Below are positions 1-5,388 of a stretch of DNA of 5,388 nucleotides, piece by piece; positions within the stretch are counted from its first letter, which is position 1; every line of letters starts with the position of its first letter. Location: NCBI GenBank assembly GCA_015904045.1, contig JABMDG010000059.1, forward strand, positions 1 through 5,388, read 5' to 3'. Both the position numbers and the translations under genes were made by a program. The notes beneath the pieces were generated by a model. That model had not been told where the DNA came from and made no database searches. It worked only from the letters and a program-made list of their open reading frames with translations. This DNA comes from Nitrospira sp. (GTDB lineage: Bacteria > Nitrospirota > Nitrospiria > Nitrospirales > Nitrospiraceae).

Positions 1-1
1 T

Positions 2-442
2 GCGCGTGAACTGACGGTCAAGCTGCCCACCGCATCCGAGGTGATCCGGACGCTTGCGGAGAAACGGCTTGTGCGTCGGCGCCAGCAGGAGGCCGATCAT
101 CGTATCGTCACGGTGCATCTCACGGCTCTGGGAGCGAAGGCCGGAAAGGTCTCGAGCGGATGGCCGGAGATTTTGTCTGCTGCGACGGAGCAACTGACTG
201 TGGAAGAACAGGTCAGTCTATTGTCCGCGCTGGTGAAGCTCATTCGGGTGTTGCAGCTAAAGGGTGAGATCCCTGTCGCGCGCATGTGTGTCTCGTGCCA
301 GTATTTCAGCCAGAATGTGCATAAGAGCGGAGACAAGCGGCACCACTGTCAGTTTTTCGATGTGCCGTTCGGTGATCAGTCCCTCCTTCTCGATTGCCCG
401 GAATATGTCGGGACTCCCATCAAAATGGCAAAAAAGGCCTGA
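2..442 (+). CDS. MarR-family winged-helix regulator with Cys-rich C-terminal tail (5' end missing)
   Basis: This is the 3' part of a transcriptional regulator; the reading frame is open to the window edge, so the true start lies upstream. An in-frame GTG at 41 is internal to the DNA-binding domain and is not the start. The visible part begins near the recognition helix (TASEVIRTLAEKRLV). It continues into the MarR wing, recognisable by ADHR followed by VHLTALG, and then a dimerisation helix around LTVEEQVSLLSALVKLIRVL. After the domain comes a tail with four cysteines: a CxxC pair (codons 287 and 296), a cysteine preceded by HH (347) and one in DCPE (395). I recall similar tails in a MarR subgroup. 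The cysteines could bind a metal or Fe-S cluster, or act as a redox switch, but the ligand is inference. It stops with TGA just before a hairpin terminator and faces the two minus-strand lipoprotein genes. Its targets cannot be told from this window. Confidence 0.8.
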   Translation, partial: ARELTVKLPTASEVIRTLAEKRLVRRRQQEADHRIVTVHLTALGAKAGKVSSGWPEILSAATEQLTVEEQVSLLSALVKLIRVLQLKGEIPVARMCVSCQYFSQNVHKSGDKRHHCQFFDVPFGDQSLLLDCPEYVGTPIKMAKKA

Positions 443-449
443 TTCTCTC

Positions 450-496
450 GGCGGCCCCCTGACGATTGTGTGAGGATGAGGGGCCGCCTGTTTTGT
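450..496 (+). terminator. Intrinsic terminator of the MarR-family gene
   Basis: A perfect 9-bp GC-rich inverted repeat, GGCGGCCCC (450-458) and GGGGCCGCC (480-488), with a 21-base loop, is followed by TGTTTTGT. It begins 8 bases after the TGA stop. On the opposite strand the nearest T-run is about 13 bases beyond the stem, so any bidirectional use for the convergent lipoprotein operon is uncertain. Confidence 0.75.
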
Positions 497-524
497 CTAG
501 ATGTGAAGCGGGCTTGGGCGATCG

Positions 525-1073
525 CTATCTGACGGGTAGGTCTATCCTGTCCGTATACAGCGGGCGGTCCGCCTCGATCCGGGAAAATACGTCATCCAAA
601 GCCAACTGAAGCGCCGATTCGATAGGCTCACGGTCCGACGCCGTGATCCATCGGGCCACTGAGCCTGCCGCCGTGTGTTCGGCGAGATACGTTTTGACGA
701 GCCGGTCTCCCTCGTGTATCTCCCCCTGCAGCCGGATATGGTAGTGGTAGCGCCCTTGCCGATCGGTCAGCGCCAATTTCGTGGTGATGTGGAGTGCGAG
801 ATCGGCGGAGTTGGTGAAGACCGAACTGAATGTTTCCCGCCGCCGCGCGTAGCGAATGATTGCCTGGCTTAGATCCTGATGCGGCCACTCCAGCAGGGTA
901 ATTCCCGGCCTATGGTCTGCGCCCTCGAGCGCAAGCGGCCCGACTGTTATCTGGAGCGATCTGGGAATCGTCGTGGAAGCGGAACCGGCGGGAAGCGGAT
1001 TGACATGGATACGGTGTACGCATCCGGTCGAAAGGATCAGCAGGAGGGCGAGGATTCCAACGGGCATAGGCAT
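525..1073 (-). CDS. Putative lipoprotein of unknown function
   Basis: The 182-residue protein is not recognised. The N-terminus has a short hydrophobic stretch (residues about 5-15, GILALLLILS) ending in STGC with C18, which looks like a lipobox. The -3 Ser is unusual and there is no basic residue before the hydrophobic core, so the signal is atypical. If lipidated, the protein would sit in the cell envelope. The mature part appears to be mixed strand/helix, with alternating hydrophobics at about 92-118 and a helix near 150-168. No catalytic motif is seen. The ATG at 1073 is the most upstream start, since the frame closes with TAA about 15 codons earlier and no GTG or TTG intervenes. No clear Shine-Dalgarno precedes it, and a second ATG lies at 1067. 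It follows the TPR-like lipoprotein gene by 62 bases on the same strand, suggesting one operon and possibly translation dependent on the upstream gene. Confidence 0.65.
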   Translation of the reverse strand: MPMPVGILALLLILSTGCVHRIHVNPLPAGSASTTIPRSLQITVGPLALEGADHRPGITLLEWPHQDLSQAIIRYARRRETFSSVFTNSADLALHITTKLALTDRQGRYHYHIRLQGEIHEGDRLVKTYLAEHTAAGSVARWITASDREPIESALQLALDDVFSRIEADRPLYTDRIDLPVR

Positions 1074-1135
1074 ACCGGCGGCGTCAGGAGATCGTCTTCG
1101 AGCAGACGGATACCATGATTATCTCGAGCATCAAA

Positions 1136-1621
1136 CTAAGGACTGGTCTGACTGGGGGTTGGGGACACGATCGTCAAGTCTTTAAGCGCTCGCGTAGCCT
1201 GTTCCCGGTATCGCTGTTCCGTCGGATTGGTATAGGTCTCAACCACTCGTTGATAGGTTGCACGGGCTTGGTCGGTTTGTTGGTTGATGGCAAAGTACCG
1301 ACCGAGCGCGATCCAGTTTTGCGCCGCTGTTTCCCTGGCCGTTTTCATCAGCGCGAACTCCTGTTGGGCATGAGACGTTCCCTGTAGTTGCACGCGTTTC
1401 TTTACCGTTTCAGCCATCTCATCGGCCATGGCTTCGATCTGTTGGTTCTCATGCACGGCAGCCCCTACCCGGTTGGCTTTGAGATGGGAGTAGAAACCCT
1501 CCACATGATCCTTGATGATGTCCGCCCGATGTTGATACGTATCATGCGCACAGCCCGAGAAGGTTAAGACCAAGCTGATTAGGGTGTACGCTGTAAGATT
1601 GTTCAGGAGACGGGAACGCAT
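1136..1621 (-). CDS. Putative lipoprotein with one TPR-like repeat
   Basis: The 161-residue protein starts at ATG 1621, chosen because AAGGA lies 7 bases upstream and a signal peptide begins right there. The frame stays open for 33 more codons to an ATG at 1720, but that extension is proline/cysteine-rich and would bury the signal. Residues 1-23 have a basic start (MRSR), a hydrophobic core and FSGC with C24 as the probable lipidation site; Phe at -3 is off consensus. Residues about 30-80 are strongly helical and charged. Residues about 102-135 match one tetratricopeptide-like unit (NWIALGRYF, then QARATYQRVVETY). The C-terminus is a Pro/Ser/Thr tail. Such proteins usually scaffold envelope complexes, but no specific partner can be named. 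It is the first gene of a likely two-gene minus-strand operon. Confidence 0.7.
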   Translation of the reverse strand: MRSRLLNNLTAYTLISLVLTFSGCAHDTYQHRADIIKDHVEGFYSHLKANRVGAAVHENQQIEAMADEMAETVKKRVQLQGTSHAQQEFALMKTARETAAQNWIALGRYFAINQQTDQARATYQRVVETYTNPTEQRYREQATRALKDLTIVSPTPSQTSP

Positions 1622-1628
1622 CGTCGTG

Positions 1629-1633
1629 TCCTT
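1629..1633 (-). promoter_or_regulatory. Ribosome binding site fixing the start of the TPR-like lipoprotein gene
   Basis: The minus strand reads AAGGA, 7 bases before the ATG at 1621. This supports the 161-residue form over the longer frame opening at 1720. Confidence 0.6.
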
Positions 1634-1690
1634 CTCGCTAGGCACAGCGCATGGGGAGCAATAGATGCCAAGTCTAACATACTTGCCCGG

Positions 1691-1725
1691 GGTAACGGTA
1701 ACAGGGCATGGACAGGGCACTGTCC
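1691..1725. promoter_or_regulatory. Possible operator: direct repeats plus small palindrome
   Basis: Three signals are packed together: a tandem hexamer GGTAACGGTAAC (1691-1702), a direct repeat ACAGGGCA at 1701-1708 and 1712-1719, and a perfect inverted repeat GGACAG-GGCA-CTGTCC (1710-1725). The cluster lies about 70-105 bases upstream of the lipoprotein start on the minus strand and about 240 bases upstream of rubrerythrin. Such an arrangement fits a binding site for a dimeric regulator, but none can be named and chance cannot be excluded. Confidence 0.3.
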
Positions 1726-1948
1726 TTGAATTTCTGCCTGCGTGGCGGGCGATTGTGCTAGAAACTGAAGTGAGGAGAGTGGATGAAGCAGAAAGTCCGC
1801 TCCAGATTAATATGGATGTATTGCCGGATAGGGGACAAGAAAAGCCCTTGAACCGGTTATGACGGCTGCGCTATCTTACAGCACTTTCAAACGAGCATAG
1901 GACCTTCTCATTTGTTATCAGATTGATCCTTTATCGAACATACACAAC

Positions 1949-1956
1949 GGGGAGGA
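1949..1956 (+). promoter_or_regulatory. Strong ribosome binding site of rubrerythrin
   Basis: GGGGAGGA ends 4 bases before the ATG at 1961. It is by far the best Shine-Dalgarno in the window, in line with high expression of rubrerythrin relative to the Fe-S gene downstream. Confidence 0.8.
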
Positions 1957-1960
1957 CAAC

Positions 1961-2386
1961 ATGAGCAAGAGTTTAAAAGGAACCAAGAGCCACGATAATC
2001 TGAAACATGCCTTTGCCGGCGAATCGCAGGCCAACCGACGCTATCTCTACTTCGCGCGGCGCGCCGATATCGAAGGCTATCCTGACGTCGGCGGGCTGTT
2101 TCGAGACACCTCGGAGGCCGAAACCGGCCATGCCTTCGGCCACTTGGACTTTCTGAAGGAAGTCGGTGATCCGGCGACCGGTGTTCCGATCGGCAATACC
2201 GAAACGAACCTCAAGTCCGCTATCGAGGGCGAAACCTACGAGTATACCCAGATGTACCCAGGGATGGCTAAGACCGCACGCGATGAGGGGTTCGCCGAGT
2301 TGGCCGAATGGTTTGAGACGTTGGCGAAAGCCGAGCGTTCGCATGCCAATCGGTTCCAGAAGGGGCTCGATGGTCTGAAGGGGTAG
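1961..2386 (+). CDS. Rubrerythrin-family diiron protein lacking the rubredoxin domain
   Basis: The 141-residue four-helix ferritin-like protein has the complete rubrerythrin diiron ligand set: E21 (in GESQAN), E54 and H57 (ExxH), E91 and E94 (GETYEY), E125 and H128 (ExxH). In the family this site reduces hydrogen peroxide in the cytoplasm and so protects against oxidative stress. Classical rubrerythrins (about 190 residues) end in a rubredoxin-like Fe(Cys)4 domain that feeds electrons to the diiron site. This protein ends soon after H128 and contains no cysteine at all, so it needs an outside electron donor. Its neighbours, a multi-cluster Fe-S protein and a DUF3501 protein, are candidate partners; that link is inference from gene order. 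Start and ribosome binding site are unambiguous. A strong terminator follows the stop codon, so much of the transcript is probably monocistronic. Confidence 0.93.
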
Positions 2387-2409
2387 TCCAGTTCATTGAG
2401 ATCGATGCG

Positions 2410-2446
2410 AGGGTGGACTAGGACAACCTGGTCCACCCTTTTTTTT
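2410..2446 (+). terminator. Strong intrinsic terminator after rubrerythrin
   Basis: The 13-bp stem pairs AGGGTGGACTAGG (2410-2422) with CCTGGTCCACCCT (2427-2439). There is a single T-G wobble and an ACAA tetraloop, and the hairpin runs straight into eight T residues (2439-2446). It lies between the rubrerythrin stop (2386) and the Fe-S gene start (2489), so expression of the latter needs read-through or its own promoter. It also shows that the in-frame TTG at 2396 and ATG at 2405 are not the real start of the Fe-S gene. Confidence 0.93.
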
Positions 2447-2451
2447 CGATC

Positions 2452-2481
2452 TTGTATTCAGGGGGAATCCCAAGGGACAAT
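2452..2481 (+). promoter_or_regulatory. Weak candidate promoter for the Fe-S protein gene
   Basis: TTGTAT (2452-2457) and GACAAT (2476-2481), spaced by 18 bases, resemble -35 and -10 elements only loosely. They sit in the one place where a promoter is expected, between the terminator and the GTG at 2489. Used as such, they would give a transcript starting almost at the GTG, i.e. nearly leaderless. Confidence 0.2.
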
Positions 2482-2488
2482 ACGAGCT

Positions 2489-4564
2489 GTGAACGGCTTG
2501 AGTTTGCTTAACCCCATCGACGCGACGCGGCTCCAGAAGGAGACGCAGCGGATTTATGAGGTGTGCGACGGCTGCCGCCGTTGTTTCAACCTCTGTCCCT
2601 CGTTCAATACGCTGCTCGACGGCATCGATTCGTACGAAGGCGATGTCGCCAAGCTGACGCAGGCCGATCACCACCGCATCGTCGATGAATGTTACTACTG
2701 CAAGCTCTGTTACAATCATTGTCCGTATACACCGCCGCATCAGTATGCGTTGGATTTTCCACGCCTGATGATCGCGTGGAAAAAGCATCTGGCGACGACC
2801 AGGGGCGTATCCTGGCGGGACCGGTGGCTGATCAAGACGGACGTGCTCGGCACGATCGGCAGCGCGCTGGCTCCCCTGATCAATCGGCTCCTCAGGACCC
2901 GTGTCGTCCGCCTGATCGGAGAGGCCATTGCGGGGGTGCATCGGGATCGTCACGTCTTGAATTTTTCATCCGAGACCTTTGCCCGTTGGTGGAGCCGGCG
3001 TGGCGGGGCGCAGGTGGCAGAAGCTGGGGCGCGAAAAGTGGCGCTGTTCGGCAGTTGCCTCGTGAACTACCAAGCGTCTGATGTGGGGAAGGCCACGGTT
3101 CAGGTGCTGGAGAAGAACGGCGTCCATGTGGTCATGCCGGAACAGCGTTGTTGCGGCATGCCGTCGTTCGACATCGGCGATACGGAGTCGATTCAACAGG
3201 CTGCTGCGGCGAATATCGCATCATTTCTCCCGTGGGTTGAGCGAGGCTATGACATCGTGGTGCCGACAGCCAGCTGCAGTCTCATGTGGAAGCGCGAATA
3301 TCCGGAGGTTGTCGGCGGGGAGGCAGTTAAGAAAGCTGCCGAACGGACTTTCGATGTATGCGAGTGCCGCCGTTGTTTCAACCTCTGTCCCTCGTTCAAT
3401 ACGCTGCTCGACGGCATCGATTCGTACGAAGGCGACGTCGCCAAGCTGACGCAGGCCGATCACCATCGCATCGTCGATGAGTGTTACTACTGCAAGCTCT
3501 GTTACAATCATTGCCCGTATACACCGCCGCATCAGTATGCGTTGGATTTTCCACGTTTGATGATCGCGTGGAAGAAGCATCTGGCGACGACCAGGGGCGT
3601 ATCCTGGCGGGACCGGTGGCTGATCAAGACGGACGTGCTTGGCACGATCGGCAGCGCCCTGGCCCCCCTGATCAATCGGCTTCTCGGGGTCCGTGTCCTC
3701 CGCCTGATCGGAGAGGCCATTACGGGGGTGCATCGGGATCGCCACGTCTTGAATTTTTCATCCGAGACCTTTGCCCGTTGGTGGAGCAGGCGTGGCGGGG
3801 CGCAGGTGGCAGAAGCTGGAGCGCGAAAAGTGGCACTCTTCGGCAGTTGCCTCGTGAACTACCAGGCGTCCGATGTGGGGAAGGCCACGGTTCAGGTGCT
3901 GGAGAAGAACGGCGTCCATGTAGTCATGCCGGAACAGCGTTGTTGCGGCATGCCGTCGTTCGACATCGGCGATACGGCGTCGATTCAACAGGCTGCTGCA
4001 GCGAATGTCGCATCATTTCTTCCGTGGGTTGAGCGAGGCTATGACATTGTGGTGCCGACAGCCAGCTGCAGCCTCATGTGGAAGCGCGAATATCCGGAGG
4101 TTGTCGGCGGGGAGGCCGTGAAGAAGGCCGCCGAAAGGACTTTTGATGTATGCGAGTACCTGATGAAGCTAAGGCGCGACGGCTTGCTGGCGACGGATTT
4201 TCAGAAAAGCCCAGGTCGCGTCGCGTATCAGATTCCTTGTCATCTGAGAGACCAAAACATCGGTTTCAAGTCCAAAGAGTTGATGGAGTGTGCCGGTGCG
4301 CAGGTCGATGTGATCGAAAAATGCTCGGGGCACGACGGCGCATGGTCAGCAAAAACAGAGTTCTTTCCGCTCTCGATGAAAATCGCGGGGAAAGCCGTGC
4401 GGGCGATCGAGCAGGCTCAGGCAGACTTTGTCGCGTCGGATTGCCCGCTGGCCGGATTGCAGTTGGATCAAGCCGGGGCTTCGGCGCACACGGGAGGCAA
4501 GGCGTCCCTCCATCCCATTCAGATCGTCCGTGATGCCTACGGGTTGCCGTCAACCGGATTGTAA
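2489..4564 (+). CDS. GlpC-like Fe-S protein with internally duplicated ferredoxin + CCG module
   Basis: The 691-residue cytoplasmic redox protein is related to GlpC/heterodisulfide-reductase-type CCG proteins. Start GTG 2489 is preferred: AAGGGA lies 11 bases upstream, and the in-frame TTG 2396 and ATG 2405 would put the terminator inside the gene. A TTG at 2498 is an alternative. Unit 1: 4Fe-4S motif C26-C29-C32-C36-P, second motif C68-C71-C74-C78-P, then a CCG domain with C190, CC221-222 and C263 (TASC, as I recall for GlpC, rather than CxxC). Unit 2 repeats this 264 residues later: C293-C296-C300, C332-C335-C338-C342, C454, CC485-486, C527. A single C-terminal domain (557-691) follows, with C584, C601, CSGH at 612-615 and DCP with C652; it is a second CCG domain with reduced cysteines. 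One unit plus this domain would be about 427 residues, so the gene carries an in-frame tandem duplication. At the joint (VCECRRC) the first cysteine spacing is altered. The function is probably electron transfer, perhaps to rubrerythrin. DUF3501 follows after 36 bases. Confidence 0.88.
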   Translation: MNGLSLLNPIDATRLQKETQRIYEVCDGCRRCFNLCPSFNTLLDGIDSYEGDVAKLTQADHHRIVDECYYCKLCYNHCPYTPPHQYALDFPRLMIAWKKHLATTRGVSWRDRWLIKTDVLGTIGSALAPLINRLLRTRVVRLIGEAIAGVHRDRHVLNFSSETFARWWSRRGGAQVAEAGARKVALFGSCLVNYQASDVGKATVQVLEKNGVHVVMPEQRCCGMPSFDIGDTESIQQAAAANIASFLPWVERGYDIVVPTASCSLMWKREYPEVVGGEAVKKAAERTFDVCECRRCFNLCPSFNTLLDGIDSYEGDVAKLTQADHHRIVDECYYCKLCYNHCPYTPPHQYALDFPRLMIAWKKHLATTRGVSWRDRWLIKTDVLGTIGSALAPLINRLLGVRVLRLIGEAITGVHRDRHVLNFSSETFARWWSRRGGAQVAEAGARKVALFGSCLVNYQASDVGKATVQVLEKNGVHVVMPEQRCCGMPSFDIGDTASIQQAAAANVASFLPWVERGYDIVVPTASCSLMWKREYPEVVGGEAVKKAAERTFDVCEYLMKLRRDGLLATDFQKSPGRVAYQIPCHLRDQNIGFKSKELMECAGAQVDVIEKCSGHDGAWSAKTEFFPLSMKIAGKAVRAIEQAQADFVASDCPLAGLQLDQAGASAHTGGKASLHPIQIVRDAYGLPSTGL
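2573..3364 (+). repeat. Tandem duplication unit, copy 1 (792 bp)
   Basis: The first copy of a 264-codon direct repeat encodes residues 29-292 of the Fe-S protein. It begins at TGCCGCCG, the second cysteine codon of the first 4Fe-4S motif, and ends at GATGTATGCGAG. It aligns to copy 2 at a constant offset of 792 with no indels. By eye I count about 36 mismatches (about 95.5% identity), and the first 71 bases are identical. Confidence 0.95.
3365..4156 (+). repeat. Tandem duplication unit, copy 2 (792 bp)
   Basis: The second copy is directly abutted to copy 1 in the same frame and encodes residues 293-556. Only six residues differ from copy 1: R136G, T137V, V140L, A148T, E233A and I243V (copy 1 numbering). 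The other roughly 29 base changes are silent. After its end (GTATGCGAG) the gene continues uniquely into TACCTG, the presumed ancestral continuation. Confidence 0.95.
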
Positions 4565-4600
4565 TTCGGCAAGCATCAATTGTGAAACGCGGGATAGGCG

Positions 4601-5185
4601 ATGAAGCAACTGATACAGGCAGATCTCTTATCCACGACCGACTATGAGCGTCAGCGAGAGTCGTTCCGTGCGCGGATTATCGAGTTGAAACGCCGCCGGC
4701 GGATTGCTCTCGGCCCGTTGATTACGATGGTGTTCGAGAACCGGGACACCTTGCTGTTTCAGATCCAAGAGATGGTTCGGGTCGAGCACATTGTCGAGCC
4801 TTCAAAGATCCAAAATGAGTTAGATGTCTATAATGCGCTTCTGCCGGCGGCTGGTGAATTGAGCGCCACGCTCTTGATCGAGATCACCGAGGAAGCCATG
4901 ATGAAACATTGGCTTGATCAGTTTATGGGACTCGATCACGGAGAAAAGGTGGCGATCGTGGCCGGGGGCGAGCGGGTCTTCGGTGAATTTGAGGGAGGCC
5001 ACAGCCACGACACGAAAATCAGCGCGGTGCATTTCGTCAGATTTCGTCCGACCGCGTCCATGCAACCGGCGATTGCCGATCTTCGACAGCCGGTTCTCCT
5101 CACGGTGGATCATGGTGAATACCATGTTCAAGCGGCCGTGCCGGGCAGCATGAGAGAGGAATGGCTCTCCGATTTGAGCGCGTAA
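4601..5185 (+). CDS. DUF3501 family protein
   Basis: The 194-residue soluble protein has features I associate with DUF3501: an N-terminal LLSTTDYERQRESFRARI segment and a basic patch KRRRRIALGP (residues about 30-39). After these come FENRDTLLFQIQEM and VRVEHI, then YNALLPAAGELSATLLIEI and a C-terminal AVHFVRFRPT segment. No cysteine, signal peptide or membrane segment is present, so it does not itself carry an Fe-S cluster through cysteines. No biochemical role is known to me. The family is often encoded next to a rubrerythrin and a GlpC-like Fe-S protein, which points to a role in the same redox process (inference). The start is ATG 4601 with GGGATAGG at 4591-4598. The gene is 36 bases after the Fe-S gene with no terminator between, so the two are probably co-transcribed. 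Confidence 0.85.
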   Translation: MKQLIQADLLSTTDYERQRESFRARIIELKRRRRIALGPLITMVFENRDTLLFQIQEMVRVEHIVEPSKIQNELDVYNALLPAAGELSATLLIEITEEAMMKHWLDQFMGLDHGEKVAIVAGGERVFGEFEGGHSHDTKISAVHFVRFRPTASMQPAIADLRQPVLLTVDHGEYHVQAAVPGSMREEWLSDLSA

Positions 5186-5196
5186 GCCAGTCTATC

Positions 5197-5231
5197 GGAA
5201 CGTTGAATGCGAAGCATGGAACATTGAGCAT
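5197..5231 (+). repeat. Imperfect short direct repeat before the PTPS-family gene
   Basis: GGAACGTTGAATGC (5197-5210) recurs as GGAACATTGAGCAT (5218-5231), 21 bases later. The repeat overlaps the ATG at 5230, and the second GGAA could serve as a weak ribosome binding site 8 bases before it. The repeat may be chance or a remnant of a short intergenic repeat family. Confidence 0.35.
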
Positions 5232-5388
5232 GATGGATTCGGTATTACTGACCAAGCGCATCGAATTTTCTTCGTCCCACCGCTACATCAGGCCGGAGTG
5301 GGATGAGGCGAAGAACCGTGCGGCTTTCGGCCTCTGTTACAACCCCCCTGCCCACGGCCACAACTATCTACTCGAAGTCACTGTCTCC
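5230..5388 (+). CDS. 6-pyruvoyl-tetrahydropterin synthase / QueD family protein (3' end missing)
   Basis: Only the first 53 residues are present. They show the T-fold pterin enzyme signature: a first zinc-ligand histidine in FSSSHRY (H17), then FGLCYNP with the probable catalytic C36, and HGHNY with zinc ligands H42 and H44, leading into the strand LLEVTV. The C-x5-HGH spacing and HGHNY are like animal-type PTPS; many QueD proteins have a shorter C-to-HGH gap. The family converts dihydroneopterin triphosphate either to 6-pyruvoyl-tetrahydropterin or to 6-carboxy-tetrahydropterin, the latter for queuosine. Which reaction applies here cannot be settled from this part. ATG 5230 is immediately followed by a second ATG (5233), and the ribosome binding site is weak. 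It lies 44 bases after DUF3501 with no terminator seen, so it may be read from the same transcript, though a functional link is not evident. Confidence 0.88.
   Translation, partial: MMDSVLLTKRIEFSSSHRYIRPEWDEAKNRAAFGLCYNPPAHGHNYLLEVTVS

Follow-up and report, generated by a model that had tools for sequence, protein, structure and literature searches.

How did a gene for an iron-sulphur protein of Nitrospira come to carry one 792-bp segment twice, and does the extra segment serve a function? The gene lies in the 5,388-nt stretch analysed here (Nitrospira sp., GenBank assembly GCA_015904045.1, contig JABMDG010000059.1, positions 1 to 5,388), which we call the window. The original prediction, made from the sequence, took it for a tandem duplication kept by selection and giving a longer electron wire. 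Our analysis leads elsewhere: with a probability of roughly 0.7, the locus is a head-to-tail joining of two strain-level alleles of an ordinary single-module gene.

The gene runs on the forward strand from a GTG start at 2489 to a stop at 4564. Its product has 691 aa, so that the predicted length of 690 residues was right to within one residue. A single direct-repeat family was found in the window, with starts at 2573 and 3365, hence a spacing of 792 bp, and with a similarity far above the chance level. Copy 1 (2573-3364, forward) and copy 2 (3365-4156, forward) are 792 bp each and align without indels; they differ at 36 of the 792 positions, scattered over the whole unit. Counted by codon, 29 changes are silent and 7 are replacements. 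The predicted in-frame repeat, with a period of 264 codons, no indels and about 36 differences in these proportions, was therefore confirmed by repeat search and alignment, the counts being exact. The reading frame is unbroken through both copies to the stop, neither copy has lost any of the cysteines of the unit, and no Ns occur at the join.

Contrary to the proposal, the unit falls short of a whole module. It opens at codon 29, the second of the cysteines in cluster motif 1, and takes in motif 2 and the first CCG domain. The first cysteine of motif 1 is carried by a unique head of 28 codons (2489-2572, forward), which is missing before copy 2, so that copy 2 is without residues 1-28. Behind copy 2, a unique tail (4157-4564, forward) contains the second CCG-type domain, in which CSG replaces CCG. 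This domain is present once only, at the C-terminus, which leaves module 1 without one.

Identity and neighbourhood were used to place the gene in a family. In Pfam searches, the 691-aa product matched CCG in three stretches and Fer4_10 in two, both families above cut-off, against two CCG stretches and one Fer4_10 stretch for the single-module product of the nearest genome (L001). Copy 2 plus tail alone, cut at 3365, scored 22.7 for Fer4_10, below the cut-off of 25.5. An iron-sulphur protein with a 4Fe-4S dicluster and CCG domains, COG0247-like as judged from Pfam, fits RFO, the rubrerythrin-associated Fe-S oxidoreductase. So do the neighbours. Upstream lies a 141-aa rubrerythrin (1961-2386, forward) that matches the Pfam families Rubrerythrin and Ferritin only and lacks a rubredoxin domain; downstream lies a DUF3501 gene (PF12007; 4601-5185, forward; E 7.2e-62). 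Among the best 80 of 157 relatives, rubrerythrin stands directly 5' of the gene in 80 of 80 loci, and in 67 DUF3501 follows in the same orientation, at most 600 nt downstream; two of the 13 misses have no contig room for it. The window closes (5230-5388) on the start of a gene resembling 6-pyruvoyl tetrahydropterin synthase, found at most 1500 nt downstream in 72 of the 80 loci. The rubrerythrin protein is 100% identical to that of L001, and silent sites differ (dS 0.100, dN 0).

The gene had been called GlpC-like. GlpC is indeed a relative, and the GlpC models (PRK11168, TIGR03379) gave the top-scoring curated family over the full single-module length. Filing under GlpC was nevertheless rejected, since the single-module L001 protein falls below both curated equivalog cut-offs (247.1 against 278, and 148.1 against 279.9); the 397-bit GlpC score of the duplicated protein arises from two matched stretches. 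With its rubrerythrin and DUF3501 neighbours, the gene is better described as an RFO. No glpA or glpB was present among the four neighbouring proteins scanned, the open reading frames 525-1073 and 1136-1720 lying outside that scan, in a window that reaches 2488 bp beyond the 5' end of the gene and 824 bp beyond its 3' end. A search of solved structures returned one weak match (E 0.00058), to a subunit I of NAD(P)H-quinone oxidoreductase.

The junction between the copies alters a cluster motif. As copy 2 begins at the second cysteine of motif 1, its first cysteine is supplied by the V-C-E that ends copy 1, and C-D-G-C-R-R-C is replaced by C-E-C-R-R-C. Motif 1 of module 2 thus reads CxCxxCxxxCP, that is C-x-C-x2-C-x3-CP, against C-x2-C-x2-C-x3-CP in 120 of 120 proteins (the best 120 of 4736 relatives). 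Of the four 4Fe-4S motifs behind the estimate of about four clusters, three are intact and one is distorted, and the longer electron wire is left unsupported. Such mis-spacing argues for a joining of alleles and against an old, selected duplication.

We then asked whether relatives share the two-module form. Genome contigs yielded 157 relatives, of which the best 80 were analysed; by their titles, 79 are Nitrospira, Nitrospiraceae, Nitrospirae or Nitrospirota and one is an uncultured Nitrosospira. None of these 80 loci is duplicated: a single-module query gave one match longer than 100 aa in 80 of 80. The module count rests on these matches and not on a motif pattern; a strict pattern picked up one Fe-S motif per locus in 80 of 80, and RCCGMP in 61 of 80 and zero times in the other 19, presumably sequence variants. 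In the genus of the L001 genome, 79 genomes, overlapping those behind the 80 loci, were scanned with three candidates scored per genome. The gene was matched in 76 and unmatched in 3. None of the 76 holds a second close copy: 74 gave one match, and the extra matches in G005 and G069 are short and distant. One of the 76, the close genome G022 (locus L083), gives no answer on this point, since its contig breaks off within the gene, at position 648 of the unit; strain variation in that genome may be a cause here too.

Protein searches agreed. The best 120 of 4736 matches are single-module proteins of 422-441 aa. A search with the junction (residues 248-340) gave, among the best 120 of 827, proteins of 388-433 aa covering 59-73% of the stretch, with one exception, P0068 (426 aa, 96% covered at 58% identity). 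The two lists overlap much, with 167 distinct proteins (P0001-P0167); neither the best 120 of 4736 nor the best 120 of 827 includes a two-module protein, and the window's own protein is absent among the matches listed. The junction sequence had no occurrence in 94 loci or in viral contigs, where three pattern matches to RFO were found, none of them a relative. A literature search on tandem CCG modules listed no paper that mentions tandem duplication. The architecture had been given as one not known in the family, and this holds for the 80 loci, the 76 genus genomes and the proteins listed. A comparison of 690- and 427-residue forms between close genomes had been proposed; the relatives examined have the single-module form only. 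Within these sets, the two-module form was seen in no genome but this one, which favours joined alleles over a fixed duplication.

Where, then, do the two copies come from? A young duplication was rejected in view of the 36 differences between them. Their dN/dS is low (NG86: dN 0.0117, dS 0.1729, ratio 0.068), as the original prediction would have it, and the 29:7 proportion does indicate purifying selection on both sequences. It does not imply selection after duplication: the ratio is in a similar range (0.091 and 0.101) when the copies are each set against single-module L001. On the same grounds a decaying second copy was rejected.

Divergence was more informative. Copies 1 and 2 differ at 36 positions per 792, copy 1 and L001 at 31, copy 2 and L001 at 36. 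Had a duplication in this lineage followed the split from L001, the copies should resemble one another more than either resembles L001, an expectation that fails here. Elsewhere in the window, dS to L001 is 0.077 for marR, 0.081 and 0.075 for two open reading frames, 0.100 for rubrerythrin, 0.111 for the head and 0.092 for the tail, all below the copy-copy value. Third positions differ at 26 of 264 between the copies and at 45 of 777 between window and L001 in these six stretches (Fisher p 0.033). Against this, the difference at four-fold sites was not significant (16 of 133 versus 32 of 391, p 0.22), and the 3' part of DUF3501 (4838-5185), which is outside the six-stretch sum, reaches a window-L001 dS of 0.207, above the 0.173 of the copies. 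Divergence from L001 is not uniform along the window.

Informative sites point the same way under near outgroups. With L002, seven sites group copy 2 with L001, two (in one codon) group the two copies, and one groups copy 1 with L001; with L083, available for 648 of the 792 positions, the counts are 7, 3 and 2. Under the distant outgroup L005 the signal is lost, the three groupings receiving 5, 4 and 5 sites, which leaves room for an old duplication. Since copy 2 goes with L001, such a duplication must predate the L001 split and have been lost in L001. A collapse in L001 by one switch, copy 1 on the left and copy 2 on the right, was rejected, as the L001 state alternates in 16 runs over 35 sites; compared with shuffled order the run count gave p 0.28, so there are no clear blocks either. 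Among proteins, residues G136, V137 and L140 of copy 2 recur in single-module P0002, where copy 1 has R, T and V. Yet within the unit P0002 still differs from copy 2 at 7 residues and from copy 1 at 10, the window's tail is closer to L001 than to P0002, and no separate strain sequence equal to either copy was found. On balance, the sequence comparisons suggest that the copies behave as two population alleles and not as sister duplicates. Both the divergence and the near-outgroup quartets would fit alleles from different strains, a two-allele origin would also account for the low dN/dS without selection on the duplicated protein, and the idea of a duplication kept by selection loses ground.

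The breakpoint bears on how the joining may have occurred. Just before copy 1, 20 nt (2549-2568, forward) match the end of copy 1 (3344-3363, forward) at 15 of 20 positions, and copy 1 ends 1 nt later. Among 14031 random in-phase pairs of the gene, 46 scored as high (p 0.0033); by an ungapped 11-mer measure (9 of 11), 110 of 14127 did. This test was devised after the sequence was seen. The match would speak for molecules that were physically joined, whether in a cell or during library preparation, and against contigs that were bluntly abutted. Directly at the breakpoint, zero bases match on the left and one on the right, and a plain de Bruijn assembler would thus have had no shared k-mer for the join. 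This fact, like the lack of Ns and a frame kept with a chance of 1 in 3, counts against the reading of joined alleles.

The repeat with its breakpoints, the open frame, the single modules of the relatives, a divergence like that of alleles and the 15/20 match are observed; that the copies came from different strains is what we infer. In this reading the head and allele 1 would run as far as the V-C-E codons that follow the first CCG domain, and allele 2 would take over with the second cysteine of motif 1 and continue to the stop. Where this took place divides our preferred reading in two. Two strain haplotypes of one gene may have been set in tandem during library preparation or assembly, a tentative choice that we hold to be quite possible. 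Allele-level divergence and topology, with no relative of two-module form, are as expected in that case, and the window may be a metagenome contig. Two co-assembled strains, which the original prediction had itself named as what would overturn it, would fit the data. For animal assemblies, passages of PMC9516828 document this class of error, including a gene region doubled beside itself; the false copies described there are separated by gaps, whereas no N run is seen here, and both the breakpoint similarity and the kept frame would be coincidences under blunt abutment. Otherwise two strain alleles may have recombined unequally in the cell, giving a real, recent and probably unstable duplication. 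This is possible but doubtful. The similarity at the breakpoint speaks for it, with the reserve that the test was post hoc. Transformation-driven tandem duplication is known in Streptococcus pneumoniae (PMC3784515), but the duplications given there are repeat-based and of about 100 to 900 kb, against a unit of 0.8 kb.

A hint of recombination also comes from the 3' side of the gene. Between flanks 94-97% identical to L001, the stretch 4543-4842, which reaches from the last part of the RFO gene across the intergenic region into the 5' part of DUF3501, is unlike L001: 67 of 149 positions differ around 4543-4692, and 43 of 150 in the following stretch. For 4565-4842 the best relatives reach 73-77% over 199-269 nt, compared with 97.2% identity to L001 for 1-2488 and 94.3% for 4843-5388. 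It could be a recombined or a chimeric stretch; such mosaicism nearby suggests recombination with other lineages and would agree with an event in the cell, but it could itself be a chimeric join.

An old tandem duplication within the lineage, fixed and selected as a two-module electron-transfer protein, and either lost in the lineage of L001 or formed just after L001 had split off, appears unlikely. The kept frame, the cysteines retained in both copies, the dN/dS of 0.068, differences spread along the unit without indels, and a breakpoint similarity as expected of a physical event are all compatible with it. It is found in no relative examined, however, and its copies would be as distant as strains, with copy 2 placed beside a single-module gene by the near outgroups. 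The remaining probability goes to readings that we have not thought of.

If the joined alleles are translated, copy 2 and the tail would most likely act as an ordinary RFO, passing electrons towards the adjoining rubrerythrin, as the family would lead one to expect, and the extra N-terminal module would be a passenger that lacks its own second CCG domain. That allele recombination at the 20-nt similar site made a real two-module RFO, whose extra Fe-S/CCG module would work with the first to extend or branch the electron relay towards rubrerythrin, we consider improbable; the case for an electron wire, as judged from sequence, is weak. Should the joining be physical, the locus would be a snapshot of allele recombination building a multi-module redox protein in a Nitrospira rubrerythrin operon. 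Should it not be, it would be a clean case of strain mixing that mimics a duplicated, "selected" domain, in which the low dN/dS between copies misleads.

Three known systems can be compared with this locus. It resembles RFO, as presented in PMC5114695, by its rubrerythrin and DUF3501 neighbours, its 4Fe-4S motifs and its CCG domains, and electron transfer to rubrerythrin is suggested there; it differs in having the Fe-S and first CCG segment twice, where the listed relatives (best 120 of 4736) have one module in 422-441 aa. GlpC, subunit C of anaerobic glycerol-3-phosphate dehydrogenase, is the best curated match over a single module, but the single-module protein stays under both cut-offs and the 397 bits come from two stretches. 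With false heterotype duplication, as described in PMC9516828, the locus shares two divergent haplotypes of one region placed side by side; there, the haplotypes are those of diploid animals and gaps lie between them, whereas here they would be those of metagenome strains, with no gap.
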